Positions 6,001 through 28,310 of a DNA stretch of 32,657 nt are shown piece by piece; the first letter of the stretch is position 1, and every line of letters begins with the position of its first letter. Made by a program: the position numbers and the translations under genes. Source of the DNA: a virus; IMG/VR virus record IMGVR_UViG_3300031851_000096, positions 1-32,657 of that record; one strand, given 5' to 3'. The notes beneath the pieces are model-generated. The model had not been told where the DNA came from. It saw nothing but the letters and a program-made list of their open reading frames with translations, and ran no database searches.

Positions 6001-6143
6001 TTTTCTACTGCTCCAACCTCTGTTGATTCAGATGATCCTAACCTAACATTTACTGCGTCAATATATTGTCCGTTTGGAACGAGTCTCTCGTCAACGGACT
6101 TATTCATTTTACCTGCTACAAAGTTTCTTGAAAGTTTAGCCAT
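1..6143 (-). CDS. Giant tail/virion protein, C-terminus cut by window edge
   Basis: The reading frame is open from ATG at 6143 to the left edge, at least 2,047 codons; I checked the N-terminal part and the last ~700 bp and met no stop. The N-terminus (MAKLSRNFVAGKMNKSVDER, then LVPNGQYIDAVNV, SESTEVGAVEN, KGN) is a module I associate with very large tail proteins of marine podovirus-like phages. The last ~500 residues hold Cys-rich tandem modules of about 130 aa with YxDCNG, ICA and CEC motifs (see repeat entry). The middle is Ser/Thr/Asn-rich and beta-like. The gene starts two bases after the connector-like gene ends and is the last visible gene of the leftward virion operon. Probable role: tail hub or host-contact structure. 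The CDS is firm; the tail role rests on size, context and the N-terminal motif, and no enzymatic motif was seen. Confidence 0.85.
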   Translation of the reverse strand, partial: MAKLSRNFVAGKMNKSVDERLVPNGQYIDAVNVRLGSSESTEVGAVENSKGNTKLTNLSYGGVLLSNQAKCIGAVDDGANDTIYWFVNDPAFGPTSPSGKLDLIVSFNVVTSILSYLVISVSDGGTSGQTVLNFDDKHLITGVNVIDGLLFWTDDYNPPRFINILRNYEDPSGSPLVDGGGNANLLRESFLVIKKPPAKAPEIELTVTSGGQENFLEERFISFAYRYEYQDDEYSAVSQFTDAAFQPKTFDFSAESFLNEGAVNRYNTAVITYNSGGPLVTAIDLLFKDSDGTIIKVIEKLKKSELGLADNTNYTFNFRNSKIFTILPDSELLRLYDNVPLLAKAQTIMGNRLMYGNYIENYNLLDKNNSPVRLEYETELISEDIGFEDINDVFTIGEYTFGGAISVPESRLFVDLGDVDLIANSILTIDASFVHSSFSGNTPTETSGSVDVQFSYVLPQDFNSVYELASSVDFQEKVGIASNIKPVFNIDPAIETSCDGNTFTDVINCAVPNILDSGQPTTWTKYESGTSAANQPISLITVPSLDSIGFQLPAIRRVNNTTTPTQSAYEYFQWDSAEVSFQRVSNNKSLHSNRDYEIGMVYMDEFNRASTALVSPLNTEHVPCGFAELKNSIRVSIPPQQKPPYWATKYKFAIKPNASTYETVYTNIFFTDPATNDTYFLLEGENSRKVEVGDRLIVKADTSGALQRCAYGTVLDKEAQQRDFLDPLPTDENGKEINIPAGTYMKIKAQDFSIAPGADPFILPGKQEITVRGNDNYPVLAYKGFAEPDAAGNYQNLTIPAGSRIQMTFEFERRGPQRGNNACERRKYNLDVSLVSSTDYDNIIEWFNGDNVQSVLNTGIQEVGGNGGPIENVYIPTTAISSNPFDRYGLNPALGTNYYRWFQDPGTQEIRFIMSGTRACGRTKKRRSTVRATWQIFRAETTIVFETEPTDAQPDVWYEGAQTFDIATGGCKTVFQVASSESNSIAFVYTLNGIQSQLVLPPGGSAAEWTDCGSAIISPSTPPDDPADVTITNTPYQDVHLGNVQDQDATNPAIIDTSFFNCFAFGNGVESYKIRDSIVGKPLLLGNRVTTTSAEDYREADRFADITYSGIYNDESNVNKLNEFNLGLLNFKKTEESFGPIEKLFARATDILTLQEDKISYVLAGKNLLSDSVPGGAITSVPEVLGTQIARLEEYGISFNPESFAQYGFDKYFSDQKRGALIQLKGSAYSNEQLTVISDAGMRSWFRDKFISSPNNQKLGGYDPYMDEYVLSINDESLPIDVPCIECGINQLLNFNGTTITYCFNVGELVGEVTITINVSDLTSGSLQAQVEYGTTLQVVNLVNGLNTITVIKNLVLTDTLNLTFDGTASAVIDYTVSCVDAKALSIVQVCVTNNSDAGQFIHNQYRWVDGPFISPLHQEQIEFLSSINSPNVSQYSTVAGVQGAGVIPADGAIVSIISNKIPPTDDFVFVTPPMNFKYLRSATLYSNTPASIQTLLNASTQLPVNSSGAPSTYLGDFIMPAGTSGDYLYLIYDYRSPVFAELCYSTTDSLDACCGCSEPDTFEATQCRADGVVQTEVVQGVYTTGELVVINGCTYEIGSITPSAATATVTSILPSGTTCEDICQEYQLEDTNGVDTDVDYIDCNGDSVTATVLADDDLVICAQEISATPGIIITLEDCECDPVAPFLIAERCVIDWSTNGFNQVTVVNSGLFNVGDLITINEDADCTYVVISETNTGPANATSTGLSTAADCSEVCNFYTVTNNSSTFDFIYTNCNGVVINEDIKAGNFKNICAKDAAPQPDFDLVWTSCECPASEPSFVNLERCQASAATTIPTTYIANNAGYNVNDIVQIDNEPDCKFKVVSFTEFGTVNTNIINTYPGEDCSDVCNEYTLTNTAGGSISVNYIDCNGLLVKIDVTSPVVENICASSITPALGIVVEFVSCECNLVPSNYSIQECVTGEVRTVTSSIAVSVGDKVELLSGDGCKWTITGTTANTATDDIVSKPLNQSCGCYSYTWENNTGSNLTLEYVDCISGKPVSQTLIPTE
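25..1500 (-). repeat. Cys-rich tandem protein repeats in the giant tail protein
   Basis: Four degenerate copies of a ~130-aa module. The Cys codon of the (V/I)DY-x-DC(N)G motif lies at 45-47, 417-419, 816-818 and 1212-1214, spacings of 372, 399 and 396 nt. Each full copy runs CxxxCxxY, YxDCNG, ICA, CEC, ERC or similar, then a GDxV strand and another Cys. The DNA has diverged, so the copies are old and kept at protein level. They may form disulfide- or metal-stabilised beta domains; the function is unknown. Confidence 0.75.
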
Positions 6144-8953: not shown

Positions 8954-10411
8954 TTAATCTTGGAAGATAAAGAAGTTATTTGCACCTAAAGTACAAACTG
9001 CTCTTTCACTCAAGAAGTTTACTTCCATCGCATCTAAGTCAGATGTTCTTGCACCACCAGCAGAACCAGTAATCCAAGTTTTGTAACGTCTGTCTTCAGT
9101 TTCAGAAGCTCTGTATCGAACATGTAAGAATGGTCTCTTAGCGTTCTTTCCAAGGATTTGGTCATAAACAGTTGTAGAACCTGCAGGCACTAACAATCCA
9201 TTGATGCTTCCTGTACCATCAACTCCCCCACGCATTGTTGGGTCGTTTAAGTATTTCCAGTCAGACTTGTAAAAGTCATAACCTCTACGGAATCCTGTAA
9301 ATCCTAAGTTAAGTGCCATCTCCTCATCATTGTCAAAAAGACCATAAGAAGTTCCACCTGCTCCATAAGAGTTTTGAGCTGCTAACATATCATCGATGTC
9401 AAATCCAAAGTCTCTGTTCAAGAAAATTACATTCTCTTCAATAGCACCTTGCTTGTCTAAACGTGAAATGATTGCGTCAAAGTCTGCTAAAGCATTAGGG
9501 TTTCCACCTGCCCATACATTACCTCTTTGTTGTACTACATAGAATACACCTTCAGACCCTTTGTCTCCAACTTGGTCAGATGTAGTTTGTGTTACAACAC
9601 CAGAACCTGCTTCAGCAGGAACTGCTTCAATCATTGCAGTTTCTAAATAGTCATCGTAACGTAAACGAGTTTCGTGCTCAGACTTCAAGTACCATAAGTA
9701 ACCTGTTGCTCCATTTTCAGTAGTAACCTCAATCCATCCGATTTGAGCCATATCAGAACCTGATACTGCATATTTATCTTTGATGATAATTGGAGAGTTT
9801 TCGAAGATGAAATCGTCAGCTTCTAATGAACCTTGCATTCCATTTGTTCCTTTCTTAAATTCAGAACCATAGATAAAAACACTTGCATCAGCATTTCCTA
9901 GTCCTGTACCACCTGTATAACCACCTGCATCGTAAAACGCAACAGTGAATTGGTTGTTTGCAAGGTCAACTGCTATAACAATAGCTTTGAACTCACCTGA
10001 CCCATCATTGTTTACAACAACAACTGTCTGACCAACTCTGATTGCAATCTGAACTGTTGCACCAGAACCTGGTTGTACAGTTGAACCTGCAGGGTTAAGA
10101 ACGTCATTTACTTGAAAAATTGCTTCTCCACCTGCTACTACTGCTGCAGTACCACAATCAACGTACTTGGTGTGTAATCTTCCTTGCTCTGCCCATTTGA
10201 TAAGGTCTGAGTTAGAAGGCATTTCTGCTCCTACCATTCTAATGAATGAGGAGATTGTTCTGTTACCATATCTTTCGAATTCTTTTTCGTAAGTATCTGG
10301 TAAATACTGATTCAAAAAGTTGAAGTCAGTAATGTAATTCGAAGCCAAAGGTGTTTGATGCGAACTTGGTTGCAAATCAAAACCTGGCGTAGCTTGGACT
10401 GATCCTGCCAT
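8954..10411 (-). CDS. Major capsid protein (putative, HK97-like)
   Basis: 485 aa from ATG 10411. The N-terminus (LASNYITDFNFLNQYLPDTY, then EKEFERYGNRTISSFIRMVG) is typical of large capsid proteins of flavobacterial podo-like phages. It is followed by a beta barrel-like insertion (GQTVVVVNNDGSGEFKAIVI) and a C-terminal region with IEENVIFLNRDFGFDIDDML and RRGYDFYKSDWKYLNDP. Its local base composition looks less AT-rich than that of its neighbours, in line with high expression. It comes directly after a scaffold-like acidic gene and before a strong terminator, the usual arrangement for an abundant capsid gene. The HK97 fold is inferred from context; a different major structural protein is the main alternative. 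Confidence 0.8.
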   Translation of the reverse strand: MAGSVQATPGFDLQPSSHQTPLASNYITDFNFLNQYLPDTYEKEFERYGNRTISSFIRMVGAEMPSNSDLIKWAEQGRLHTKYVDCGTAAVVAGGEAIFQVNDVLNPAGSTVQPGSGATVQIAIRVGQTVVVVNNDGSGEFKAIVIAVDLANNQFTVAFYDAGGYTGGTGLGNADASVFIYGSEFKKGTNGMQGSLEADDFIFENSPIIIKDKYAVSGSDMAQIGWIEVTTENGATGYLWYLKSEHETRLRYDDYLETAMIEAVPAEAGSGVVTQTTSDQVGDKGSEGVFYVVQQRGNVWAGGNPNALADFDAIISRLDKQGAIEENVIFLNRDFGFDIDDMLAAQNSYGAGGTSYGLFDNDEEMALNLGFTGFRRGYDFYKSDWKYLNDPTMRGGVDGTGSINGLLVPAGSTTVYDQILGKNAKRPFLHVRYRASETEDRRYKTWITGSAGGARTSDLDAMEVNFLSERAVCTLGANNFFIFQD

Positions 10412-10433
10412 AATTTTTATTTTTTTAAATTAA

Positions 10434-11519
10434 TTATTTTCTTTTTATACTTCTAATTTTAAGTCCTCTTCCACTCTCTGTGTTTAAAGACTTAAATTGT
10501 GTTCCTCCTTTGCTTGTCACTTCTGGTGCTCTACGATCAGACATATTAATATTTTTTGTCTTACGCATCACATCTTCTGTGGCATTAGCTTTACCTTGCT
10601 CATAAAAGAACTTAGCAAATTTTTCAGGATTCTGTGCAATTGCTATACTCCTATGAAAACCTTTTGAATCTTTTAAAAGACCATCGTCATCTAAATACTT
10701 GGTTGCCCAACTACCTGGATTTAATGCATTCTTTTTTAACTCATCAGTACTGCTTGGAGAAAATGTTATTGTTTCTTCACCTATATTAAATTCAAAACCT
10801 TTGAACTCAGGTGTAAATACTTCTAACGTCTTGGAGTCGTAAAGCTCTTTCTTTCTAGCAGTCTCTTCTTCATAAGACTTCGCATTTGCGATGTATTGCT
10901 TATAGCCTTCCATTTCTTTATCAGATACATTTGAAGCCTGCGTTCCACTTGACTCAAGTGGATGCTTGTACTTTTCTTGCATTCCTTTAAAGTAATCTTT
11001 TGCCTTAGCAATAGCTTTTTTCTTCTTTAACTTAATTTTCTTTATAACTGCTTCTTCATCTAAGTCTTCATCAAAAGAATAGTCATCCATTAAGGTTTCT
11101 ATATCCTCTTCATCAAGACCATCTTCCGTAGCACGCAAATAATCTTTAAGTAAAGAATCAGGGTTGGTATCGTCAAAATCTTTCTGTAACTCTACAAAAT
11201 CTTTGATTCCTCTCCCTGTATCTTTTTTATATTTAAAGTAAGCAGCGACATCTTCAGGTAATTCTTCCTGAGTTTCTCGCTCACTCATTAACTCATCAAA
11301 TGAATTAATTTCTTTATTATATCTTTTACCAATATATGAAAGAACGTCTTTCTCGTCTAATTCAGCAGGCTCTTCAGCTTTTGGCTCTTCAGCTTTTGGC
11401 TCTTCAGCTTTTGGTTGATCTTCTTGAAGACCCTCTTCATGCTTATCTAAAAGCTCTTGTTCTACCTGTTGTACAGACTTTTCTTCTCCTACTGTTACTT
11501 CTTTTACTTTGAATTCCAT
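10434..11519 (-). CDS. Acidic scaffold-like protein upstream of capsid
   Basis: 361 aa from ATG 11519. It is highly charged: an acidic N-terminal half with three KAEEP units (about residues 37-52), long Glu/Asp stretches around residues 110-150, then a Lys-rich helix (KKIKLKKKKAIAKAKDYF) and a basic C-terminus (GRGLKIRSIKRK). A charged, helical, low-complexity protein directly upstream of the capsid gene is the usual look of a scaffolding or capsid-assembly protein. A basic C-terminal tail is known from other scaffolds to contact the coat, though that is inference here. No protease motif was seen. A promoter-like TATATTTG lies 21 bp upstream of the start. Confidence 0.65.
   Translation of the reverse strand: MEFKVKEVTVGEEKSVQQVEQELLDKHEEGLQEDQPKAEEPKAEEPKAEEPAELDEKDVLSYIGKRYNKEINSFDELMSERETQEELPEDVAAYFKYKKDTGRGIKDFVELQKDFDDTNPDSLLKDYLRATEDGLDEEDIETLMDDYSFDEDLDEEAVIKKIKLKKKKAIAKAKDYFKGMQEKYKHPLESSGTQASNVSDKEMEGYKQYIANAKSYEEETARKKELYDSKTLEVFTPEFKGFEFNIGEETITFSPSSTDELKKNALNPGSWATKYLDDDGLLKDSKGFHRSIAIAQNPEKFAKFFYEQGKANATEDVMRKTKNINMSDRRAPEVTSKGGTQFKSLNTESGRGLKIRSIKRK
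11371..11415 (-). repeat. 15-bp coding tandem repeat (KAEEP x3)
   Basis: Three consecutive plus-strand copies of TCTTCAGCTTTTGGC at 11371-11385, 11386-11400 and 11401-11415; only the last base of copy three differs. They encode PKAEE repeats near the N-terminus of the scaffold-like protein. Near identity points to recent slippage expansion. Confidence 0.95.
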
Positions 11520-11539
11520 ATGATTAAATTTGATTATTA

Positions 11540-11547
11540 CAAATATA
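11540..11547 (-). promoter_or_regulatory. -7 promoter element for the scaffold/capsid genes
   Basis: Minus strand TATATTTG, a perfect TAnnTTTG, between the portal stop and ATG 11519. A TTG at 11563-11565 lies 15 bp upstream, slightly short for the -33 element. A separate capsid promoter would make sense for expression. Confidence 0.5.
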
Positions 11548-11574
11548 AGAAAAAAATAATACCAATTTTAGACA

Positions 11575-14010
11575 TTATCTAGGATTGAATTCAGCCAAAT
11601 CAAAGCCATCTAGACTATCTTCATTTGATTCAAAATTTACTGGTGGTAAATTATTTTTTCTTTGTTGTATTAGTTTTGATTGTTCAGTATTAGCTTGACT
11701 AATTCTATTAGCTTTTGCTCCCTCTCTTTGAACCTCTCTTTGAGCTAATGATTGTTCCGATATATTTCTTAGTTGTAAATTATAATTAAACTCTTCTTGC
11801 ATTAGCTTGCTTTTAAGCATAGCCTCATTGTTTTGCTTTTCTATTTCAAAAGCTATTTCAGCCTGCTTTAACTGCATCTTACTTTGCATCTCAGCTTGTT
11901 GAGCTTGCATTGTCATTTGCTGCTTCATCTCTTGAGACTTTAATGCCTGTTGAGCTTGCATTGCTTGAGCCTGCATTACTTGTTGTTGCTGCTGCTCTTG
12001 TAATGCTTTACGTTTTACTTTAAGTAATTGATTAGCAAGCTTAATGTTTTTTATCTCTCTAATATCAATAGCATCTTCTAAATTAATGTCACCCTTAGAT
12101 AAAGCCATTTGTATGTTAGCTTCTAATTGAGCTCTTTGTTCTTCATCTGGAGCTACTTCAATAAAAATGCCAAAGTCATAAATATACAAGTCTTTAATAT
12201 CATTAAGTATACTCACGTTATATTTACCTATAGCATTAGCAAAATCATCTTTAAAATCTGCATACTGTAATATATCTGCCACCCTATAAGTTATAGCTTC
12301 TGCTAAAGTTCTATATATATATAACGAACCTTCAAGTATATGTCTAGTTGCAACATTAGAATTTAAAGCTGCAAGCTTTTGTAAACCAACTAAAGAATTA
12401 GGATCAGGTGAAGAAGCATCTCTAGCTTCATTTAATCCTGTTACCTGTCTAATCATTCCTAAGTAATGGTTATAATTTGCAATTAACATTTGTGTTTTAC
12501 TTGCACCTGAGCTAGATTGTAACTCTTTAATTGGAACTTTCCCTTGATTGTAGTCTCCATCTTGAGTATAGCTTCTACCAATAACAGAACCTGTTTGGAA
12601 ATATAATCTCAAAGCATCTTCAGGATTATAAGCATTTCCTGTACCTAAGTCTACTTCGTTTAATCCATCAGCGTCAATATATACACCATCAGGGACAACT
12701 CTCGAAATAACCTGTTGCAGTTTTAGGTGTGTTATCTGTATCAAATCAGCAAAAGGAATCATACGTCTTGTTAAAGATTCAATAACTCCTTTATACATTC
12801 TAGGAGCTACTGCTACGTAGTTTGGTAATGCATGTTGTTGAGCTGATTTTGGTCTTACCATATTCTCAGCAAGTTCCCACTTTAAAAGAATATTTGTACC
12901 CATAACCATTACCCCTTCATACCACACATCAATGGTTTTTTCCATCTTCTCAAACCTTCCTTCTTCCATCATTTCTACAGGTGGATTAAATTGGTCATCT
13001 TTCTCTATAACCTTTGTTCCTCCATTTTCTAGTATTTTCTTTTTATAAACTACTTTTTTAGTGGTTTTATAATTAAAATACATTAATGTAACAGTGTCTC
13101 TATAAAAAATATCATTCTCATAGAACTGAGCCACATTATAATAGTCATACCAACTCTGAGAGTATTTAGAAATTTCTTCTAAATCTTCTCTAGTTAAAGA
13201 CTGGTCAATTTTCATCAACTCAGTAATTGGGAGAGTTTTAATTTCTCCCCAATAAAAACAATCTTTAAAGTGTGGGTCTTCTGTATAACTGTAAACAATA
13301 TTTGCAGGGTCTACATATTTAATTTCAACTCCTGCTCCTGGTAAAAATTCATGTTTTGTACAACCAATACCTAAAACAGTTAAATCGTAATCAACTCTTT
13401 TTCTAACATCGTTGTAATGATTTTCTGCAAAAATAGTATTAATAGCTTCTTCTTCAGCAATCTCTATGGCAGGCTTGTATTTAAGCTGCATGTATAAGTT
13501 TAATTCTTCATCTGTTTGAGGAAGGTCATCAGGATTCATAATGAAAGGGTCAGCTCCTGTTTCTTTTTGAACAATTTGAAGAACATCTTTAGCTGCTGCT
13601 TGACCTTGTATCATATCTTGATACTTACTTCTTTGAGATTGAGACATAGCATCTTCTGCATATGCCTTTACATCAAACAACCTGTCGTTCATTCCATTAA
13701 CAACGACATCTACAAATTTAGGGATAATAGGAACAGGTGTCCAATCTAGGTTCAAGTAACTTAAATCACCATCAACTGCAAGTTCATTTTTATATTTAGC
13801 TACCGACTGTTCACCTCTAGCATAAAGACGCAACCTGTAGAAATCTCTCCACTGATTATAATATCTGCATTGGTTGCCATCTTTCTTAAACCATTCGTAT
13901 TGAATAGCCTGACCTATTTGTAAGCCAAATTCATCTGATGCTTTTTCACTATCAGAAACAAACTGACTTGGAAACCCAACAGAAGAAACATTTATTTTTA
14001 CGTCTTTCAT
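11575..14010 (-). CDS. Portal protein
   Basis: 811 aa from ATG 14010. The N-terminal region (YEWFKKDGNQCRYYNQWRDF, then RLYARGEQSVAKYK, NLDWTPVPIIPKFVDVVVNG) matches large portal proteins of flavobacterial podo-like phages. The central part holds a TRRMIPFADLIQITHLKLQQ helix and RQVTGLNEARDASSPDPNSL, typical of the portal stem/wing region. The C-terminal ~150 residues are a Gln/Met/Ala-rich coiled coil (about residues 665-760), as in other ~800-aa portals. It starts one base after terL ends and precedes the scaffold/capsid pair. The portal forms the DNA channel at one capsid vertex and docks the terminase. Confidence 0.85.
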   Translation of the reverse strand: MKDVKINVSSVGFPSQFVSDSEKASDEFGLQIGQAIQYEWFKKDGNQCRYYNQWRDFYRLRLYARGEQSVAKYKNELAVDGDLSYLNLDWTPVPIIPKFVDVVVNGMNDRLFDVKAYAEDAMSQSQRSKYQDMIQGQAAAKDVLQIVQKETGADPFIMNPDDLPQTDEELNLYMQLKYKPAIEIAEEEAINTIFAENHYNDVRKRVDYDLTVLGIGCTKHEFLPGAGVEIKYVDPANIVYSYTEDPHFKDCFYWGEIKTLPITELMKIDQSLTREDLEEISKYSQSWYDYYNVAQFYENDIFYRDTVTLMYFNYKTTKKVVYKKKILENGGTKVIEKDDQFNPPVEMMEEGRFEKMEKTIDVWYEGVMVMGTNILLKWELAENMVRPKSAQQHALPNYVAVAPRMYKGVIESLTRRMIPFADLIQITHLKLQQVISRVVPDGVYIDADGLNEVDLGTGNAYNPEDALRLYFQTGSVIGRSYTQDGDYNQGKVPIKELQSSSGASKTQMLIANYNHYLGMIRQVTGLNEARDASSPDPNSLVGLQKLAALNSNVATRHILEGSLYIYRTLAEAITYRVADILQYADFKDDFANAIGKYNVSILNDIKDLYIYDFGIFIEVAPDEEQRAQLEANIQMALSKGDINLEDAIDIREIKNIKLANQLLKVKRKALQEQQQQQVMQAQAMQAQQALKSQEMKQQMTMQAQQAEMQSKMQLKQAEIAFEIEKQNNEAMLKSKLMQEEFNYNLQLRNISEQSLAQREVQREGAKANRISQANTEQSKLIQQRKNNLPPVNFESNEDSLDGFDLAEFNPR

Positions 14011-16176
14011 TTATCTAATTATTTCACTACGATTTCCTTTATTGTTGTATCTAGCAAAGTTAACAATAATATTTGATTGTTTTTTCTCAGGTTGATAAAG
14101 ATGTCTTTGACAAGCCATTACTGCCAAACCTGAACTAATAGATGCGTCAAACTTAGTTCTGTTGCTAATGTCAAACTTTGCCCAATCTTCTAATGTTCTA
14201 CTAAAAGGCATATAACCCATTTCATCTTCTTTAACTAATCCTACGTATGTTTCAATATAAGACTCAATAGCTGCTGCGTGAGCCTGTTTTACTGCTTCAC
14301 TTGAGTTAGGTATACCCCCAAGCTCTTTTTCTGTCTTAGAGAGCTTGTGTTTAAGTTTATCTGGTCGGTTTATACTAAAGCTTCTATACCCTCTATTTTT
14401 AAAATGATATAACAACCTAGGTTTATTATTCTCTACTAATATAGGCATTCCATAAAAAACACATGCCATCAATACTTCCTCAAAAAATATTTCGGCAGTT
14501 TGAGGTCTTGCTACATACTCTAAAAAAAACTGATTGCTAGGAGCATCATCCATATTAAACTTTGTAATTCCATGCAATGCACCATTAGATGCACCTCCTC
14601 CAACAGTTCCTGATATATCATAACTGTCACACCCAAAAGCACCAAGATGCTCATTTAAAGGAAAAAAATCTCCTCTATTATTTTTCTTGTACCTATTTTG
14701 CATATTTTTTTTAGGAAGCCACCCTACTAAAAATCTTCCTCTAGTGTTAGGAGTCCATATTACTTCAGTATCTTTAATTCCATTTTTCCAGGAAAAAGAG
14801 CCACGAGTTGTATGGTGTTCTTGTATAAGTGAATCATTGTAGTCTATCTGTTGATATATTCTTGTAAGATTAAACAATGACTGTTTGCTTTCATCTCTAA
14901 ACGCATGAGATTCAGTACGAGGAAATTGTCTGTAAAACTCATTTAATGCGTCAGGATCATTCTTTAAACTTTCAACTTCATTGTTCCAATACTCTATAAC
15001 ATCATCCATAGGCATACCATACTCATCTATATAACCTTCAAAGTTCCACTCCATAGGGATAAAAAGTGAATATAACCCACTTTTGGTTTGACCATTATTA
15101 CTTCTTTCATGTGGATTAGAATCGTAATATAGTTTCTTAAACTCTTCACCTCCTTTACTAAGAGAGTTAGATGTCGACCCCATCATACACTTACCAATTA
15201 TTCTTCTACCCAACCTTAAACAAGTTTTCGTAACACGATAATTATTTAGTATATTATTAGGCTTTAGCCATTTACCACTTTCATCATGAGCTAATAATAA
15301 AAGTTTTTCCCCATCATAAGAGTTGTCATCTGTATTCTTCCAGTCAATGGTTGTGTCAAGACCTTCCATCTCTTCATCATCAACATTGTACATATTCTTT
15401 TTTGTAATCTTTGATGCAGGTATTCTAAAAGCTAATTCAGTTTTTGGCTTATCCATACCATCCTGAACAGGTTTAAAAAAGAAAGGATAGTTTCTCACAA
15501 TTGGAACAACTTTGTCTGTAAACATTTTTTTAGCATCAGAACCAGACTTAGATAATATTCCTATTCGAGAGTTTTTAGATATTGTTCCAACATTTGCACA
15601 CTCTTCAGATGCCATATATGAAAAACCTGAACGTCTGATTTTTAAATATATCATACCAAAGCATCGAGGATCTGCTTTACATGCCTCCCAAAAAATGTAA
15701 AAGATTCTGTTAGCCTCCCTAAAATCTGGATAACCAACATCAATCTTTGTCCATTGAAGGTACATATAATGTGACCCAGTTATATATGTACTATTGTTAT
15801 TGTTTACAAACCAATAGCCTTGTTCTCTTTTGTCAAACTCACTTTCAATATAGTCTACCCATTGAGCTTTGAAAGTATTAGGATGTTCATTCCATTGAAA
15901 TATAGATTGTATTTTTAGAATTTCTTTTGGTGGTTCTTCTCTTTCCCACTTGTTATTGTCTCTTTGAAGAGACTCTGGAGCTTTAGGCAAACCAATCCTA
16001 AGTCCGTTAATTTCATATATCTCACCTACCTCACCTGTTTTAGAAATTACAACAACATCATACTTTTCATCATAGCCATATTTCCATGACCTATTCCTAT
16101 TCTTTTTTTTAAGAATACCTTTAGGTATGTAGTTATCTATAACCCTGTATAAACTATGAAGACCTTCGTTCTGCAA
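14011..16176 (-). CDS. terL: Terminase large subunit (ATPase/nuclease)
   Basis: 721 aa. The start is TTG at 16176: an in-frame TAG lies a few codons upstream and the first internal Met is near residue 138, so a non-ATG start is needed. It overlaps the upstream gene by 23 nt, which suggests translational coupling. ATPase signatures are a Walker-A-like KIRRSGFSYMAS (179-190), a Walker-B LLLLAHDES with Asp-Glu at 298-299, and a coupling segment GSTSNSLSKGG (333-343). The C-terminal nuclease domain starts near 510 with an acidic motif GCDSYDISG (515-523). The length suits a full TerL that packages genomic DNA into the prohead. The Walker A is divergent (RSGFS in place of GxGKS), as in other marine and crAss-like TerLs. 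Confidence 0.9.
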   Translation of the reverse strand: MQNEGLHSLYRVIDNYIPKGILKKKNRNRSWKYGYDEKYDVVVISKTGEVGEIYEINGLRIGLPKAPESLQRDNNKWEREEPPKEILKIQSIFQWNEHPNTFKAQWVDYIESEFDKREQGYWFVNNNNSTYITGSHYMYLQWTKIDVGYPDFREANRIFYIFWEACKADPRCFGMIYLKIRRSGFSYMASEECANVGTISKNSRIGILSKSGSDAKKMFTDKVVPIVRNYPFFFKPVQDGMDKPKTELAFRIPASKITKKNMYNVDDEEMEGLDTTIDWKNTDDNSYDGEKLLLLAHDESGKWLKPNNILNNYRVTKTCLRLGRRIIGKCMMGSTSNSLSKGGEEFKKLYYDSNPHERSNNGQTKSGLYSLFIPMEWNFEGYIDEYGMPMDDVIEYWNNEVESLKNDPDALNEFYRQFPRTESHAFRDESKQSLFNLTRIYQQIDYNDSLIQEHHTTRGSFSWKNGIKDTEVIWTPNTRGRFLVGWLPKKNMQNRYKKNNRGDFFPLNEHLGAFGCDSYDISGTVGGGASNGALHGITKFNMDDAPSNQFFLEYVARPQTAEIFFEEVLMACVFYGMPILVENNKPRLLYHFKNRGYRSFSINRPDKLKHKLSKTEKELGGIPNSSEAVKQAHAAAIESYIETYVGLVKEDEMGYMPFSRTLEDWAKFDISNRTKFDASISSGLAVMACQRHLYQPEKKQSNIIVNFARYNNKGNRSEIIR

Positions 16177-16441
16177 ATCCTTGTTTAGTGTCTAGTTTAC
16201 TTGGACCTCGTGCTTCGATTTCCATTAAATTTTTTTCATTCTCTATTCTAGTCAGTATATCAAAAGCATCAAATATAGCTAACTTCTTAGTAGCTGCAGC
16301 ATTCTTTAGTCTATCAGCAGCTAACTCGTCTTCAGGGTCTGGCTTAATTATATCTTCCTTAGCAACTTTAATTAGTTGCTCTACGGCTCTCATTCCTGCC
16401 TGAATAATATTCTTCTTTAAAGTTTGTGGGTCTAGTGCCAT
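16154..16441 (-). CDS. Small helical protein upstream of terL; small-terminase candidate
   Basis: 95 aa from ATG 16441. It is almost entirely helical (QTLKKNIIQAGMRAVEQLIK, then DELAADRLKNAAATKKLAIF, DAFDILTRIENEKNLMEIE). Its 3' end overlaps terL by 23 nt. The position, size and helical content suit a small terminase subunit (DNA recognition), but no helix-turn-helix is clear. The segment AADRLKNAAATKKLAIFDAF recurs, as I recall, beside terL in marine phages. The family call is an inference. Confidence 0.7.
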   Translation of the reverse strand: MALDPQTLKKNIIQAGMRAVEQLIKVAKEDIIKPDPEDELAADRLKNAAATKKLAIFDAFDILTRIENEKNLMEIEARGPSKLDTKQGFAERRSS

Positions 16442-16493
16442 TTGGATTATATTTTATTCTTGGTCTTTTTTTTCTTCTAGGCTTATCTTTCAT
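16368..16493 (-). CDS. Possible 41-aa basic ORF overlapping the small-terminase candidate
   Basis: ATG at 16493 overlaps the stop of the upstream gene as ATGA (16490-16493), the coupling geometry also used by groEL/groES here. It encodes 41 aa starting MKDKPRRKKRPRIKYNPNG, strongly basic, and ends within the next gene in another frame. It would explain the 48-bp gap in an otherwise tightly packed operon. It could equally be a chance ORF. Confidence 0.35.
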   Translation of the reverse strand: MKDKPRRKKRPRIKYNPNGTRPTNFKEEYYSGRNESRRATN

Positions 16494-17053
16494 AATTTAA
16501 TTGTTATTTGATGATCAAACATTCGATAAAGTTTTTCACCATCCACCTCAAACTCATATTCACTTTCTGGTTTAAAACATATTTTATCTCCTGGATTCAC
16601 ATTTTGTGAACGCAAATACTCATTGCTATACTTTATTTCACCAACTAAAGGTTCTTCGTTTGTGTTTTTGTATAAATAATAATCCTCTGTAGGAACAGGT
16701 TTCGTAAAACAATACCTGCCACTAGTATTCCATTGTTCACCATCATGATACATATAAAACTGATCAGGCTCAACAAAAAATAAATCATTCATAAAATAAC
16801 TTCTACCACTTTTTCTTCTGCCCTGCATATCGTTATAAAATTTAAAAACATTGTGATGAACTAAAAGTTTATCTCCTGGTTTAATAGGACCATCATACAC
16901 AATAGGTGTGGCTACCACCTCAGCAATACGATTAGATGCCTTATGGTTTTCTTCTGAGGTGCTTGTTATAAAGTCTACTCCACCTATATTTTTAGTGTTA
17001 TTATATCTTTTATTGTCTAAAGGAGTAGTGATAAATAGGTAAGGTGATTTCAT
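16490..17053 (-). CDS. GroES-like protein with two tandem barrels (putative)
   Basis: 187 aa from ATG 17053. Residues ~5-101 follow the GroES plan: strand YLFITT, a loop with GGVDFITSTSEENHKASNR (24-42) in the place of the mobile loop, AEVVATP (44-50), KPGDKLLVHHN (58-68), and a closing NDLFFVEPDQFYMY (89-102). Residues ~112-187 repeat the second half: GRYCFTKPVP, VGEI (137-140), NPGDKICF (153-160), VDGEKLYRM (170-178), HQITIKL. In E. coli GroES the matching parts are GEVLAVG, VGDIVIF and SESDILAI. The protein is thus a candidate two-barrel co-chaperonin. It lies just upstream of the terminase genes, far from the phage groEL/groES pair, and its start overlaps the previous stop as TAATG. Family membership is my pattern reading, not a profile hit. 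Confidence 0.7.
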   Translation of the reverse strand: MKSPYLFITTPLDNKRYNNTKNIGGVDFITSTSEENHKASNRIAEVVATPIVYDGPIKPGDKLLVHHNVFKFYNDMQGRRKSGRSYFMNDLFFVEPDQFYMYHDGEQWNTSGRYCFTKPVPTEDYYLYKNTNEEPLVGEIKYSNEYLRSQNVNPGDKICFKPESEYEFEVDGEKLYRMFDHQITIKL

Positions 17054-17283
17054 TAGAAGTTAATATTATATTCGACAGATACAGGCATATTAATAAACTG
17101 CTTCCACAAAACAATTTCTTTGTTATATGTGGATTCAATCCATATTTTAAAGGCATCTACATTTTCATCATATCTTATGTGATGTATTTTGTAAGTACCT
17201 TTTAATATTTCTTGTCCAACAACATAATGCATAGCTCCTCCTTTGTAATCAGGACCAACTGCTATCTTACGAATATCATTCAT
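17053..17283 (-). CDS. Small conserved phage protein of unknown function
   Basis: 76 aa from ATG 17283: a short beta-rich protein (MHYVVGQEILKGTYKIHHIR, then FKIWIESTYNKEIVLWKQF). I do not recognise a domain. It is first in the leftward virion operon, directly after a TATATTTG element, and its stop overlaps the next start (TAATG, shared base 17053), so the two are probably co-translated. It could be a partner of the GroES-like protein, but only position says so. Confidence 0.7.
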   Translation of the reverse strand: MNDIRKIAVGPDYKGGAMHYVVGQEILKGTYKIHHIRYDENVDAFKIWIESTYNKEIVLWKQFINMPVSVEYNINF

Positions 17284-17303
17284 TTAATTAGATTTAATTT
17301 ATA

Positions 17304-17311
17304 CAAATATA
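17304..17311 (-). promoter_or_regulatory. -7 promoter element of the packaging/virion operon
   Basis: Minus strand TATATTTG, perfect TAnnTTTG, 20 bp upstream of ATG 17283 and just beyond a terminator T run. No well-placed -33 TTG was found. Confidence 0.55.
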
Positions 17312-17314
17312 ATC

Positions 17315-17347
17315 AAAAAAAAATACCCCTGAATTAACAAAGGTATT
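17315..17347 (-). terminator. Probable intrinsic terminator of the fibre-like gene
   Basis: Minus-strand stem AATACC/GGTATT (17342-17347 with 17322-17327, 14-nt loop) followed by a T run (17315-17323). The stem is only 6 bp, so it is moderate. It lies about 100 bp past the fibre-like stop, after the tandem-hairpin region. Confidence 0.6.
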
Positions 17348-17356
17348 CTAAGCTAA

Positions 17357-17437
17357 GAGGTCGACTAATTGAAAAAATCTCAAAGATTTAATTCTAATTG
17401 AAAACATCTCAAAGATGTAATTCTAATTGCCAACCTC
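17357..17437 (-). ncRNA. Candidate structured RNA: tandem 29-nt hairpin repeat in the fibre 3' UTR
   Basis: Two full 29-nt units (17365-17393, 17394-17422) and a partial third (17423-17429). Each unit has a 6-bp stem with a 3-nt loop: AAATCT-CAA-AGATTT in unit one, ACATCT-CAA-AGATGT in unit two. The only two differences between units are paired with each other (A-T to C-G), a compensatory change. GAGGT (17357-17361) can pair with ACCTC (17433-17437) and enclose both hairpins. The minus strand carries CAATTAGAATTA, also found in leaders of the rightward operon. It lies between the fibre-like stop and its terminator, so it is probably transcribed leftward. Confidence 0.5.
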
Positions 17438-17444
17438 GCATATT

Positions 17445-18365
17445 TTAAATGCTAAACCTTTGAGCATTACCTGTTGACCCTTGAGTTAGTGTGTAATTAT
17501 TTACAACTTTACGATTACTGCCATCATATTGATATTTTAATGTTACGGCATTTGATAAATCTCCAAATATGTATGGCAACTCATGGTTTGTATTTGTCCA
17601 TGTAGGGTTTGGTATACCTATAGCAAATTTCATTATAATTTGTGAGGTATGATAATCATTTATATTATTTTCTGGATTTACATTAGCAGCAGGTCTTGTA
17701 ACTGAAAATCGTGTACCCCAATAATCTCGTGTTGTTGTCGCAGGAAGTGATGTCACTTCTGTTGCATTTACGATATCAAACAAAAATCCTAAAGGATTAA
17801 AAGGAACTTCAATATATGTAGTAGGTCTTAGCGAAGCAAAGTCAGTTATTAATGACCCTGTCTTAGCTATCTTTAATTCACTGTTTATATCCCATTCTGT
17901 TGGAATAGGAAACAATATATTACCATCATTAGTAGTCTGTAAAGTTGATGCCCAATTACTACCTGGGAAATTAGTTCTCTGATATTCTCCATTGTTATGA
18001 GAAGGGTGAATAAAATTTGTCCTTTTCATTAAATACGAAGAAATACCACCTTGATCTACTCTTCTAGTTTTTGACTTTCTATATCTAAACATAAAAAGCC
18101 TAGGATTTTTAGTTAACCAATCTGTTTCAACAGGTTTTTGCATAGCCACAAAAGCTTTATCATTTTTTGTAGTAGCATCAACATATGGTCTTTTCAAAAC
18201 ATACATATAGGGTGTAGGAATATCATCACCTTGTCCTATGTAAGTTTTTAAACCCTCAACAGTAATGTTCTTAGTTACATCTGTTGGTGTCCCATTTGTT
18301 TGAGTGATAATTATCTTATCATCACCTTGAGGTGTAACTGTATTATATGAACTAATCTTTGGCAT
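17445..18365 (-). CDS. Tail fibre-like/virion appendage protein
   Basis: 306 aa from ATG 18365. The N-terminus (MPKISSYNTVTPQGDDKIII, then TNGTPTDVTKNITVEGLKTYI) is the short attachment module that begins many phage fibre and appendage proteins, where residues such as DKI...T...TKN..V..L lead into a variable distal part. The rest is Asn/Thr-rich and beta-like with no catalytic motif. It ends in LTQGSTGNAQRFSI. It is the last gene before a structured 3' UTR and terminator, and follows the holin by 4 bp. Its position beside the lysis genes and adhesin supports a host-contact role. The receptor-binding function is inferred. Confidence 0.6.
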   Translation of the reverse strand: MPKISSYNTVTPQGDDKIIITQTNGTPTDVTKNITVEGLKTYIGQGDDIPTPYMYVLKRPYVDATTKNDKAFVAMQKPVETDWLTKNPRLFMFRYRKSKTRRVDQGGISSYLMKRTNFIHPSHNNGEYQRTNFPGSNWASTLQTTNDGNILFPIPTEWDINSELKIAKTGSLITDFASLRPTTYIEVPFNPLGFLFDIVNATEVTSLPATTTRDYWGTRFSVTRPAANVNPENNINDYHTSQIIMKFAIGIPNPTWTNTNHELPYIFGDLSNAVTLKYQYDGSNRKVVNNYTLTQGSTGNAQRFSI

Positions 18366-19415: not shown

Positions 19416-22259
19416 CTATGGGGTGCAGGCAGTAAAATTAGGTTTTGGTTGTGTCCATGAAGTAGCACCATCAGCAAAGCTTGTACAGTAAGTCACATTA
19501 CCCACATTCCATCCACTTAAATCTTGGTTATAGGACGTTGCATTTTGAAACATAAAACCCATATTAGGTATATTACTCACATCCCAAGAACTTATATCTT
19601 GATTAAAAGCATTTGCATCATAAAACATACTTAACGTATTAGTTGCACTAGTCACATCCCAAGAACTTATATCTTGATTAAAAGGAGTATTTCTAAACAT
19701 ATTATTAAAATCAGTAACACTACCAGTATCCCAACTACTTATGTCTTGGTCAAAAGAAGTATCTTTAAACATCTTATACATCCTAGTTACACTACTCACA
19801 TCCCATCCACTTATGTCTCCGTTAAAAGAAGTAGCATCCTCAAACATACCATTCATATCAGTAACACTACTTGTGTCCCAAGAATTTAAGTTTTGGTTAA
19901 AAGAATCTGTGTCCCCAAACATTCTCGCCATACTTGTAACACTACTCACATCCCAATTATTTAAAGGTTGATTAAAATCACGACACTTATTAAACATATC
20001 ATTCATAGCAGTAACATTACTAACATCCCAATTACCAATAGGTTGATTAAATGAATCTGCATTCTCAAACATATTGAACATAGCAGTTACACTACTCACA
20101 TCCCAAGAACTAATATCTTGGTTAAAAGGAGAACCACTAAACATACTATTCATATTAGTAACACTACTAACATCCCAAGAACCTATATCTTGATTAAAAG
20201 AATTTGCAAAATTAAACATACTATCCATAGTGCCAACACTACTCACATCCCATCCACTTATATCTTGGTTAAAAGGAGAAAACTGAAACATAAATGCCAT
20301 ACTTGTAACACTACTTACATCCCAAGAAGTTATATCTCCATCAAAATCATTTGCTCCATTAAACATACTTTGCATAAAGTTAACACCACTTACATCCCAA
20401 GAACCTATATCTTGGTTAAAAACACGAGCATCATAAAACGTTTCATACATCCTAGTAACATTACTTGTGTCCCAACTACTTATGTCTTGGTTAAAATCAA
20501 ATGCTTGACGAAACATTTTAGACATATCAGTAATATTACTCACATCCCAAGAACTAATGTTTCCGTTAAAATCCCTTGCTTTATAAAATATACTCTTCAT
20601 TTGAGTAGCACTACTTGTATTCCATGAATTTAAATCTTGGTTAAAAACATTAGCATCTTGAAACATTGATTCAAAGCTAAAAACACTACTCACATCCCAT
20701 GAGTCAAGAGGTTGGTTGAATAGATTTGCACCTAAAAACATATATTGCATGGTAAATACATTACTTGTATCCCAAGAGCTTATATCTTGATTAAAAGAAC
20801 CTGCTCCATAAAACATACCTACCATATTAGTCACACTACTAGTATCCCAAGAACCTATATCTTGATTAAAAATAGAACTACTCCTAAACATCTGATTCAT
20901 CTTAGTAACACTACTAACATCCCAAGAACCTATATCTTGATTAAAAGAATTTGCATCATAAAACATATCGCCCATACCAGTAACACTACCTGTATTCCAA
21001 CTTGTAATATCGCCATTAAAAACAGAAGCATCCCTAAACATAGAAAACATATTAGTTACACTGCTGACATCCCAAGAATTTAAGTTTTGATTAAAAACAG
21101 AAGCATCCCTAAACATAGTATTCATGTTAGTCACACTACTTGTGTCCCAAGCACTAATATCGCCATTAAACGAGCTTTTGTTAAAAAAAGCATTAGACAT
21201 ATTTGTAACTTGGCTAACATCCCAATCTTGTATCTTTCCGTAAGGAGAAAGGTCATAGTCTCCATTAGGGTCTTGAGCTAGTATATCATTAATTGCAGTT
21301 TGAAATGTTGCATCAGTTAATTGACTAGCATTTACAAAAGGTGGTTTAGGTAGTGTCCAACTTGGTGTATTAGTATCAAAGTCAGTGTAATTACTAACAT
21401 TACTCACACTCCAACCACTTAAATCTTGGTTAAAACTTGTTGCGTCTTTCCACATCTCTTTCATGTTGTTCACGTTGCTAGTGTCCCAAGAACTAATGTT
21501 TCCGTTAAATGATGTAGCATCTTCAAACATGCTAAACATATTTGTAACTTGGCTAACATCCCAACTGTTTAAAGATTTATTAAATGAAGTTGCAAAATTA
21601 AACATACTAGCCATATTAGTAACATTACTCACATCCCATCCACTTATGTCTTGATTAAAAGATGATGCTTGATAAAACATACGCTCCATAGTATTTACAC
21701 TACTCACATCCCAATTAGAAATATCTTGATTGAAAGCTGAAGCAAAACCAAACATATAAAACATAGTAGTCACGTTACTCACATTCCATCCACTTATGTC
21801 TTGATTAAAAGCAGAATTAAACGAAAACATATTACTCATATCAGTCACGTTACTCACATCCCAACTACCAATGTTTTGATTAAAAGGAGTACCTGTAAAC
21901 ATCTCAAACATATCAGTTACACTACTTACATCCCAAGAACTTATATCTTGATTGAAAGAAGTTGCCTGCCCAAACATTCTATACATATCAGTAACACTGC
22001 TTGTATCCCATGCAGAGATATCTCCATTAAAAGTAGACTTAGATATAAAAGCATTTGCCATATCAGTAACTTGGCTAACATTCCAATTTTGAATTTTGCC
22101 ATAGGGTGCTAGGTCGTAATCCCCATTGGGGTCTTGAGCTAATATATCTGTAATCGCTTGATTAAATGTAGCGTCAGTTAGAGGCAGACTTCCTCCTCCC
22201 CCTGCACCAATTGCTGAGGATGTTGAAGATCCTATACCTACTGCAATGGCTATATACAT
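19416..22259 (-). CDS. BspA-like/DUF285 repeat adhesin, two tandem solenoid domains
   Basis: 947 aa from ATG 22259. After a Gly/Ser-rich N-terminus ([10 protein letters not shown]) comes a cap ([20 protein letters not shown]) and then ~25-aa repeats of the pattern [20 protein letters not shown]. I count nine repeats ending with a [10 protein letters not shown] cap, then a second copy of the start cap ([20 protein letters not shown], near 21190-21325) and 23 more repeats ending with a SWTQPKPNF cap: 32 repeats in two domains. This is the BspA-like surface repeat (DUF285), known from bacterial surface proteins that bind host or matrix molecules. Between the spike-base-like protein and the lysis genes it is probably a tail adhesin or receptor-binding protein. 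No signal peptide or sorting tail is present, which supports a virion role. Confidence 0.85.
19440..22190 (-). repeat. ~75-bp coding repeats of the DUF285 adhesin (about 32 copies)
   Basis: The plus strand shows recurring ACATCCCA(A/T)...ACTTAT(A/G)TCTTG(G/A)TTAAA blocks every ~75 bp (72 where one codon is lost, as in the TP/SP ends). Copies are diverged in the xx of NMxxMF but almost fixed in [15 protein letters not shown]. Such arrays can expand or contract by recombination. Confidence 0.92.
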
Positions 22260-25775: not shown

Positions 25776-26204
25776 TCAGACTACTTAAAATATTGGAGGG
25801 TAGTGCGTCAGTTTATAAAAGCAAAACATAAGCTAACACAAGCAGACCTTGACATCTTACTATTTTTAAAATCAGAACAATACTTTTCAAAAGATAAATT
25901 TAAAGAGTTCGATGAATTAATAAGTTGGAATAAAAACAGATTTGAAAATCTAAGACAGGCAGGTTGGATTGAGGTCTTTAGAAAAAGAATGGGTAAAAGA
26001 AAAGCTCTATATCAACTTTCTACAAAAGGAAAAAGGGTCACCACATCAATATACAAATACCTCAATGGGAAGGAAATTCCTACAAGTAATGATGGCAACC
26101 CTATGTTTCTTAGAAACGTATCATACACCGATAAGGTGTATCGAAATTTTATAACAGAAATGAACGCTTTTACAAGACAACAACGACATCAGATTCAGAA
26201 ATAA
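25770..26204 (+). CDS. Winged-helix-like DNA-binding regulator (putative)
   Basis: 144 aa from ATG 25770. Residues ~20-95 look like a winged helix: LTQADLDILLFLKSEQYFSK (helices), WNKNRFENLRQAGWIEVFRK (recognition helix and turn), then a wing with KRKALYQLSTKGKRVTTSIY. The order and the KxxxYxLSxKGK ending are those of MarR/PadR-like regulators. It is the only rightward gene among the leftward late genes, is divergent from the small-gene operon, and its 3' end overlaps the groES stop region by 35 bp tail to tail. It may control the operons on either side. A similar protein is, as I recall, common in flavobacterial phages. Confidence 0.7.
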   Translation: MQSDYLKYWRVVRQFIKAKHKLTQADLDILLFLKSEQYFSKDKFKEFDELISWNKNRFENLRQAGWIEVFRKRMGKRKALYQLSTKGKRVTTSIYKYLNGKEIPTSNDGNPMFLRNVSYTDKVYRNFITEMNAFTRQQRHQIQK

Positions 26205-26427
26205 CTGTGTGCTGCGTTCCGTTGATTACCATCTTGTAGCCTGCCCTTGAGTCGTAGTATATCTCATCAGCAGTGTTTACCACACCCACATCTGTACCAG
26301 GCATGACAACCACACCCTTCTTATATCTCAAGTCCTTGGTGTCTTCGCTAGTTAAAAGTATTCCTGACTCTGTACTGATCTCTTCTTTGATTTCATCAAT
26401 CACGATATATTTTCCTATTGGCTTCAT
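26170..26427 (-). CDS. groES: Phage co-chaperonin GroES
   Basis: 85 aa from ATG 26427. The GroES plan is complete: N-terminal strand MKPIGKYIVIDEIKEE, mobile loop with ESGILL (20-25; GILL in place of the usual GIVL), KGVVVMPG (37-44), ADEIYYDSRAGYKM (53-66) and the closing SESDVVVVL, the counterpart of SESDILAIVE in E. coli. It is about ten residues shorter than bacterial GroES. It overlaps the end of groEL by ATGA, so it is downstream of groEL, the reverse of the bacterial groES-groEL order. It should cap the phage GroEL during folding. Its 3' end is overlapped by the rightward regulator. Confidence 0.88.
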   Translation of the reverse strand: MKPIGKYIVIDEIKEEISTESGILLTSEDTKDLRYKKGVVVMPGTDVGVVNTADEIYYDSRAGYKMVINGTQHTVISESDVVVVL

Positions 26428-28046
26428 TCGCTTTCGTATGTTCTAGCCATTGTAATAATGGCATTGGTTGATAAAATAGTTACTGCAACAGACACTGCAT
26501 TTTGAAGAGCCGACCTAGTCACCTTGGTAGGGTCAATAACACCCATCTCTATTAGGTCACCATATTCCTTAGTCTTTAAATCATACCCATAATCAAATCC
26601 ACTAAGGTAGTGGTCTTTGAGAATATCATCAGGTTCTAGACCTGCGTTTATAAGTATCTGTCTCCATGGAGCTTGCAGGGCATTGTACATAATATCTCTC
26701 GCTACCATAAGCTCCTTGGTTTCCTTTTTTTCATTTCTCTTGAAGTGAAAGGGTGCACATATTTTTGCTAGTGCCATTCCTGCTCCTGGAAGTATACCTT
26801 CCTCTAAAGCTGAACGTACTGCACACACTGCATCGTCTACCCTGTCATACAACTCCTTCTGCTCAAGGTCTGTGTTACCTCCTACATGGATAACCCCTAT
26901 CCCTCCTGTTAAGGAGGCGATTCGCTGAAGAATAAAATCCTTGTCATGCTTTGCCTTAGTTACCTTGTGTGCATCCCACAACTCAGCTACCCTTTGGTCC
27001 ACATCCTTGTTTTCCTCAGCCTCACTTAAAATTACAGAAGAGTCTCTCCCAACTATCACCCTGGAAGCAAACCCTAAGTCTGTAAATTCAATGAGGCTTA
27101 AATCGTCACCTGTCTTCTCCGAAAAATATGTAGCTCCTACCGACAACGCAATGTCCTGCATCAGCTCATGCTGACGATATCCAAAGTTTGGTGGTGGAAC
27201 TGTACATAGGTGTAACCCCCTCTTCTGAACATTGGCAGCCAAAGTGGCTATCACATTCGTAGTACATGGCGATATAATTAATAATTTTTTCTTATCTTGT
27301 ATGATTGGTTTCAACACATTCTCTATCTGAAGTATGTTACTGATCTCTGCATCACATACTAGTATATGCACATCATCCAATATACACTCGTCTTTCTTTT
27401 GGTGGTTGATAAACATCGGTGACGAATATCCCTTATCTATCTTAATACCTTTAGTGGTTTCATAAAAAGTCTCTGGTGTCGGTGAGTTCTCAACAGTGAC
27501 TATGCCGTTCTTGCCAACATCGTTGTAACAGTCAGAGATTATCTTCCCTATAACCTTGTCGTTATTGGCTGATATAGTTGCTACATCAACTAACCTCTTC
27601 TTTGTTACCTTCTTACTTTCTTTCTTTAAAGACTTAACCAACCCTTCGGTCTCACTTGCTAGATGTCTTAGAACTTCTGTCTTGTTTACATCACCAGTAA
27701 TCTTTTGCAATCCCTGTTTAACTAACGCCTCTGTCAACACTATAGCAGTAGTAGTCCCATCACCTGCTGAGGTAGCAGTTCTAGCTGATGCTTCTTTCAT
27801 CATCTTTACGGCAAGATTACCCACAGGGTCTGCCATGTCATAACTCTTAGCAACAGTTACACCATCCTTGGTGACTGTCATTCCATGAGTGTGATGAGGT
27901 GATTCAATTATTACTGTTTGACCCATAGGTCCTAGTGTGCTCTTAACTGCACTTGATATCATAGAGATACCTTGAAGAAGTTTCTTTTGTGAGTCTACAC
28001 CTATCGTAAGTTCTTTAGGTGAATACCCTCCCATTGGATTATTCAT
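26424..28046 (-). CDS. groEL: Phage chaperonin GroEL (Hsp60)
   Basis: 540 aa from ATG 28046 (MNNPMGGYSPKE). A frame-open ATG 22 codons upstream (28112) is rejected because the promoter -7 element (28073-28080) lies inside that extension. ATPase residues are intact: TLGPMGQ (38-44), TKDGVTVA (59-66), GDGTTT (95-100), VDDA with the D398 equivalent at 405, and GAG at 421-423 in place of GGG. YGYDLKTKEYGDLIEMGVIDPTK close to residue 485-507 matches the C-terminal equatorial domain. The apical domain (about 185-375) is diverged: PPPNFGYR for the usual APGFGDRR. The GGM tail is absent; the protein ends TYESE. Expected role: folding of phage proteins such as capsid. Local base composition looks less AT-rich than in the virion genes. 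Confidence 0.93.
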   Translation of the reverse strand: MNNPMGGYSPKELTIGVDSQKKLLQGISMISSAVKSTLGPMGQTVIIESPHHTHGMTVTKDGVTVAKSYDMADPVGNLAVKMMKEASARTATSAGDGTTTAIVLTEALVKQGLQKITGDVNKTEVLRHLASETEGLVKSLKKESKKVTKKRLVDVATISANNDKVIGKIISDCYNDVGKNGIVTVENSPTPETFYETTKGIKIDKGYSSPMFINHQKKDECILDDVHILVCDAEISNILQIENVLKPIIQDKKKLLIISPCTTNVIATLAANVQKRGLHLCTVPPPNFGYRQHELMQDIALSVGATYFSEKTGDDLSLIEFTDLGFASRVIVGRDSSVILSEAEENKDVDQRVAELWDAHKVTKAKHDKDFILQRIASLTGGIGVIHVGGNTDLEQKELYDRVDDAVCAVRSALEEGILPGAGMALAKICAPFHFKRNEKKETKELMVARDIMYNALQAPWRQILINAGLEPDDILKDHYLSGFDYGYDLKTKEYGDLIEMGVIDPTKVTRSALQNAVSVAVTILSTNAIITMARTYESE

Positions 28047-28072
28047 TTGATTTGATTTAAATGTTATACATA

Positions 28073-28102
28073 CAAAGATACAATAATTATTCCATATCCA
28101 AA
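28073..28102 (-). promoter_or_regulatory. groEL-groES promoter
   Basis: Minus strand: -33 TTTG at 28099-28102, 18-bp spacer, -7 TATCTTTG at 28073-28080. Both boxes and spacing match the Bacteroidota consensus, 26 bp upstream of ATG 28046. Two GTGAC sites sit immediately upstream, so regulation by a site-binding protein is plausible. Confidence 0.8.
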
Positions 28103-28310
28103 CCTGTGACAAGGTGACAAACTTTTTTCCCTATATATATATATATTTTTTCCTCCTTTTATAAATACTACTCCCTATACGACCCTTTTAAATTGTCACA
28201 AACTGTCACCATCCTAATTATCAAATAGTTAAGTATTTAAATTCGTCACAAAACTGTCATTTATTTGTCACAATATTATAATAAACTATACTAGTCTGTC
28301 ACAATAAAAC

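Follow-up and report, generated by a model that had tools for sequence, protein, structure and literature searches.

Why would a phage that encodes both GroEL and a canonical GroES carry, among its packaging genes, a further gene whose product resembles two GroES domains in a row? The locus that raises this question lies in an IMG/VR virus record (IMGVR_UViG_3300031851_000096, positions 1 to 32,657), the whole of which, 32,657 nt, is referred to here as the window. The relevant features are as follows.

8954..10411, minus strand: probable major capsid protein, a possible client (phrog_13704 virion structural protein, E 8.7e-99)
11575..14010, minus strand: portal protein (phrog_6547, E 4.9e-132)
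14011..16176, minus strand: terminase large subunit (phrog_6681, E 1e-165)
16154..16441, minus strand: 95-aa gene in the interval between the tandem gene and terminase (open frame)
16490..17053, minus strand: tandem GroES-like protein, 187 aa (open frame; phrog_13932, E 4.4e-17; AlphaFold2 model and fold search)
16490..16735, minus strand: predicted barrel 2, residues 107-187 plus stop (VIA-align rows 2-16; phage GroES profile, 94%)
16646..16681, minus strand: reduced barrel 2 loop, residues 125-136 (174 of 181 rows have a short segment 116-144)
16736..17053, minus strand: predicted barrel 1, residues 1-106 (own model, pLDDT 89.0; VIA-align rows 1-13, GroES/Cpn10)
16928..16996, minus strand: mobile-loop-like segment of barrel 1, residues 20-42, tip GGVDFIT (hydrophobic at 28/29; low confidence at 31-40)
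17053..17283, minus strand: 76-aa gene directly upstream of the tandem gene (upstream relative in 199 of 202 testable loci)
26170..26427, minus strand: canonical single-domain GroES (Pfam Cpn10, 44.1 bits with a cut-off of 21.1, E 2.2e-11)
26424..28112, minus strand: phage GroEL (Pfam Cpn60_TCP1, E 2.2e-57; phrog_5725, E 2.7e-131)

The open frame of the tandem gene runs exactly from 16490 to 17053, and its 187-aa translation contains the motifs on which the original prediction was built (GGVDF, AEVVATP, KPGDKLLV and others). According to the open-frame list, its start shares one base with the stop of the 76-aa gene, and it is followed by the genes for the 95-aa protein, the terminase large subunit, the portal and the putative capsid protein, which confirms the proposed location in a packaging operon; the product of the last of these genes is probably the major capsid protein, judging by its position and size. 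The Pfam matches of the canonical GroES and GroEL (E 2.2e-11 and 2.2e-57) likewise bear out that the tandem protein is encoded in addition to both. The 95-aa protein has no Pfam match at E 1. The 76-aa protein is without Pfam or PHROG matches at E 0.01, weaker Pfam matches being present, and it may act together with the tandem GroES. Elsewhere in the window, a 947-aa protein consisting mostly of DUF285 repeats (19416-22259, minus strand; Pfam, 1028 bits) is unusual for a phage, and a DUF285 protein is also annotated near the matching place in the phage Elemovirus. A frame of at least 2047 aa (3-6143, minus strand) continues past the window end, and an 11-kb structural gene of Elemovirus occupies the corresponding place.

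The AlphaFold2 model of the whole 187-aa protein (37 aligned sequences) has a mean pLDDT of 82.4 and a pTM of 0.76. The first solved structure that Foldseek matched to this model was 7ekq_R (E 2.0e-5, TM 0.56/0.54), named in its record as the chloroplast Cpn20 co-chaperonin subunit, with Cpn10s next. VIA-align gave 7ekq_R a Z score of 9.4 (158 aligned residues, rmsd 5.3), and among its best 50 rows this chain alone spans residues 1-187. The remaining GroES rows align with barrel 2, among them 1wnr_G (Z 8.9, rmsd 2.4, 70 aligned); rows 2-16 match this barrel to single-domain Cpn10, GroES and gp31 chains at Z 7.3-8.9, including T4 gp31 (1g31_A, Z 7.3). The whole-chain TM lies above the value of about 0.3 that single-domain GroES rows reach on the whole model in Foldseek, which suggests that the relative placement of the modelled barrels is roughly that of Cpn20, in a loose superposition (rmsd 5.3 A). 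Since barrel 2 fills the match list of the whole model, barrel 1 was modelled separately (67 sequences, pLDDT 89.0). VIA-align rows 1-13 for this model are all GroES, Cpn10 or Cpn20 (Z 8.1 to 6.2), and below them, at Z 5.8 and less, come dehydrogenases with a GroES-like fold; a single row reaches Z 8 or more (the best, 8.1), near the warning level of the program. Foldseek returned nothing below E 0.001 for barrel 1 alone (best 8.3e-3), and the GroES-like assignment of this barrel is carried by VIA-align, which re-aligns Foldseek candidates only. In the search of predicted viral structures, the top matches included a protein of Cellulophaga phage phi18:3 named chaperonin cpn10 (query TM 0.74). 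Structure prediction and fold search thus agree with the original prediction of two GroES barrels: a GroES-type barrel is found in both halves of the models (residues 1-106 and 107-187), and the protein is predicted to consist of two such barrels head to tail.

At the sequence level, phrog_13932 (co-chaperonin GroES) aligns with residues 1-178 at E 4.4e-17 and matches all 68 of 68 diverse members of the family. Two scans of viral contigs confirmed at least 597 and at least 595 relatives (80 of each were retained), and together with the phrog_13932 match these numbers indicate that the tandem protein is not a product of chance. The Pfam Cpn10 model scores 15.9 bits on the window protein, under its cut-off of 21.1, and reaches E 0.05 or better in 32 of the 68 diverse members. 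Above the cut-off are barrel 2 of the relatives in G055 (36.8 bits) and phi18:3 (33.3 bits), as well as those in phi38:1, G030, G031, G032 and G056 (24.1-26.9 bits). NCBIfam gave no match to the window protein at E 0.01; weak partial Pfam matches to DUF7765 (17.4 of 27 bits) and Lactamase_B_5 (11.9 of 28.4 bits) were rejected as identities. When profiles were compared with that of 45 single phage GroES sequences, barrel 2 matched at 94% and barrel 1 at 32%, the barrel 1 score of 24.7 exceeding 100 of 100 column shuffles narrowly (top shuffle 23.8). Therefore, barrel 2 is, on profile evidence, a Cpn10 domain by descent, whereas the assignment of barrel 1, with weak sequence support, leans mostly on predicted structure. 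The profiles of the two barrels align over 10 columns at 4%, and thus an internal duplication is not apparent from the sequence. Two conserved segments, HHN and SEYEF, lie outside the loop of barrel 1. A subgroup of about 201 aa (L160, L165, L172 and others) continues beyond barrel 2 into a conserved C-terminal tail that carries the motif EYNPSWA or a similar one.

The tandem protein was also proposed to be unusual, and this does not hold. A tblastn search with the window protein found 77 phage records, including 68 from Flavobacterium, seven from Cellulophaga, one from Maribacter and one unclassified, and the phi18:3 copy as query added eight records that represent four phages, each entered twice. 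A viral-contig scan with the protein of Maribacter phage Panino found no relative. Altogether, 215 fetched loci, named records excluded, carry the tandem gene, and in each of the 208 with more than 900 bases downstream a terminase match lies within 1.5 kb downstream of it (208/208). A relative of the 76-aa gene is found directly upstream in 199 of the 202 loci with room upstream. In isolates, this gene already bears the annotation "co-chaperonin GroES" or "chaperonin cpn10" (phrog_13932). The tandem GroES family is thus widespread among related aquatic phages rather than rare, known in isolates as a co-chaperonin, and fixed in position beside terminase. Bartlau et al. (PMC8776804) count chaperonin cpn10 as a core protein of Pervagoviridae, and the Calle_3 record suggests that this is the tandem protein. 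In L135, a contig of 1.05 Mb whose title names a Candidatus Aenigmatarchaeota chromosome, a tandem GroES is followed by frames sized like terminase, portal and capsid genes (10001-18086), which may represent a prophage, misbinning or a chimaera.

The original prediction had placed a loop at residues 24-42 of barrel 1, and this segment indeed resembles a GroES mobile loop: it contains the least confident block of both models, residues 31-40 (pLDDT 56 in the whole model, 74 in barrel 1 alone). Loops were compared in an alignment of 181 rows, from which one 86-aa fragment was excluded and in which the window sequence occurs twice (L001 duplicates it). In 175 of the 181 rows, residues 28 and 29 are each L, I, V, M or F. 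Two residue pairs of strand 63-65 are hydrophobic more often (181 and 180 of 181 rows) and the pair 7-8 equals the loop pair in this count, so that the latter is distinctive solely as a loop feature. The tip of the window loop, GGVDFIT, has a charged residue beside the hydrophobic pair, and its residues differ from those of canonical GroES. The corresponding segment of barrel 2, residues 116-144, comes in a short form (26-31 residues; 174 rows) and a long form (36-39 residues; the other seven rows). The long loops of these seven rows and of phi18:3 are GroES-like by eye, phi18:3 having full loops in both halves; the Pfam Cpn10 match crosses the barrel 2 loop in G031, G032, G055 and phi18:3, and in phi38:1 and G056 it does not. 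The simplest history would be an ancestral tandem protein with two loops, the second of which was reduced in most of the sampled lineages.

Single GroES and GroEL genes were sought in 63 records, mostly picked by length and with MAG contigs left out; as fragments cannot show absence, we considered the 16 records of at least 50 kb, namely the 11 viral contigs of this length that the fetched loci contain and five named records, where G029 and phi38:1 represent one phage and several others are closely related. A single-domain GroES is present in 16 of these 16 records, annotated as hypothetical in Panino, and GroEL in 14. With PF00118, which a very diverged chaperonin could escape, GroEL was not detected in G031 (72.8 kb, possibly an incomplete genome) or in the complete circular record of phi18:3. 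The phage GroELs that were aligned, that of the window (26424-28112) among them, do not end in the Gly-Gly-Met tail that E. coli GroEL has (five of five), and its absence, read from the sequences, may point to a different GroEL cavity.

The reading that we consider probable, with room for serious doubt, is that the protein is a phage tandem co-chaperonin acting as a Cpn20-like GroEL lid for the folding of a virion protein late in infection. By analogy, a GroEL ring would be capped via the hydrophobic-tipped loop of barrel 1, the ring being the phage's own where one is encoded and the host's otherwise. The capped chamber would then assist the folding of a virion protein in the late phase of infection, as with T4 gp31, and the client would most likely be the capsid protein encoded by the same operon; capping of GroEL on behalf of the capsid protein, as originally envisaged, is plausible from the genomic position. 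The full-length match to Cpn20, the GroES-like model of barrel 1 alone, the Cpn10 scores above the cut-off for barrel 2 of relatives, the phrog_13932 match of 68 of 68 members, the hydrophobicity of the loop tip, the full loops in both halves of phi18:3, the GroEL (14 of 16) and single GroES (16 of 16) in the long records, the terminase neighbour at 208 of 208 loci, the missing virion MS/MS tag in phi40:1 and phi18:3 and the gp31 precedent count for a lid, whereas the Cpn10 score below the cut-off, the missing NCBIfam match, the weak sequence and Foldseek support of barrel 1, the charged residue in the loop tip, the residue pairs elsewhere in barrel 1 that are at least as consistently hydrophobic and the reduced loop of barrel 2 count against it, as does the uneven fit of a two-barrel chain to a seven-fold ring.

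In a particular form of this lid, tandem and single phage GroES would share one ring of seven domains, for instance three tandem chains plus one single or two plus three, with loops contributed by barrel 1 and the single GroES only. We regard this version as a tentative possibility. Consistent with it are the presence of a single GroES throughout the 16 long records, even in the two where GroEL was not detected, the similarity to Cpn20 across both barrels, and the hetero-oligomers of seven GroES-like domains that Cpn20-type and Cpn10-type subunits are reported to form in chloroplasts (PMC5780408). However, the single GroES gene adjoins GroEL and is distant from the tandem gene, the 16 records include several close relatives, and the co-occurrence is equally expected if the tandem and single proteins serve different clients. 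Were it correct, which is less likely than not, phages would have independently reached the chloroplast solution, an uneven lid of seven tandem and single domains with some positions loopless and a cage tailored to a virion protein, and in phages without their own GroEL the lid would take the host ring.

Alternatively, the GroES fold could have been co-opted into an assembly factor of the packaging machine or the head, with no role as a GroEL lid, which we consider unlikely. The constant terminase neighbour (208/208), the conservation of HHN and SEYEF outside the loop and the undetected GroEL of phi18:3 and G031 would fit such a role, but the barrel 1 loop stays hydrophobic and several relatives have GroES-like loops in both halves. 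The record notes of two isolates give MS/MS tags of virion proteins, within the detection limits of the method. Those of phi40:1 tag the portal (gp091), gp093 and others, and neither the tandem protein (gp089) nor terminase (gp090); in those of phi18:3 the portal is tagged and the tandem protein (gp096) is untagged. A stable virion part is thus less likely, and the untagged protein fits a helper rather than a virion component; because terminase is untagged as well, a transient role in packaging or head assembly is still compatible with these notes. The notes of phi38:1 (NC_021796, L083) credit structural genes to phi18:1_gp91 and similar; they seem to be mislabelled, as phi18:1 has 65 features and the matching MS/MS notes sit in phi40:1. 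On comparison, phi18:1 proved to be unrelated. Least probable of all is a two-tier lid of seven tandem chains, with barrel 1 on GroEL and barrel 2 stacked above to give a taller dome for a large client: the loss of the barrel 2 loop in 174 of 181 rows would be expected if this barrel made no GroEL contact, and T4 gp31 provides a precedent of a modified dome, but the arrangement of the barrels in the model is similar to that of Cpn20 in one rigid match (TM 0.56), if loosely (rmsd 5.3), and both loops are retained in the phi18:3 and Callevirus relatives.

Among known proteins, the closest are the phrog_13932 proteins of Elemovirus, Callevirus, Baltivirus and Panino, which belong to the same family over the full length and whose genes are located just before that of the terminase large subunit, as in the window. 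The window protein shares 35.3% identity with the copy in Elemovirus and 26-28% with those in Callevirus, and its barrel 2 loop is short, whereas that of Callevirus and phi18:3 is longer. Canonical phage GroES (phrog_3188; 26170-26427 in the window), which the barrel 2 profile matches at 94%, differs in having a single barrel with a full loop and in being encoded beside GroEL. T4 gp31 is a phage co-chaperonin with a modified dome that folds the T4 capsid protein. It shares the fold and has one barrel per chain rather than two, and we know of no tandem partner for it in T4. PMC6318259 describes gp31.

The tandem design itself has its counterpart in chloroplast Cpn20 (7ekq_R), which likewise consists of two head-to-tail GroES barrels matching the predicted model over its full length (Z 9.4, rmsd 5.3, 158 aligned), and which occurs with a single-domain partner (7ekq_P, Chaperonin 11), much as the tandem gene co-occurs with a single GroES in the phages. 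Its sequence match to the window protein is weak and limited to barrel 2 (E 0.017). Plastid Cpn20 has a mobile loop on both domains. Besides belonging to a plastid rather than a phage, it differs from the window protein in this respect, and the latter is not classed as a Cpn20 because its barrel 2 loop is short. Concatemers of six or eight GroES domains are also functional according to PMC5780408, and given the chloroplast hetero-oligomers reported there, mixed and uneven lids both have a precedent. Our searches of the open-access literature, some of which targeted the tandem form, yielded no description of tandem GroES proteins in phages, the counterpart of the chloroplast design. Cultivated systems are available in phi38:1 (tandem gene gp089) and phi18:3 (gp096), both with Cellulophaga baltica as laboratory host, and in Elemovirus; they lend themselves to studying what use a phage has for a dedicated folding cage and in what way GroES domains that come in even numbers work with a GroEL of seven-fold symmetry. 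The same review (PMC5780408) describes tandem co-chaperonins as unique to chloroplasts; the phage version found here is widespread.
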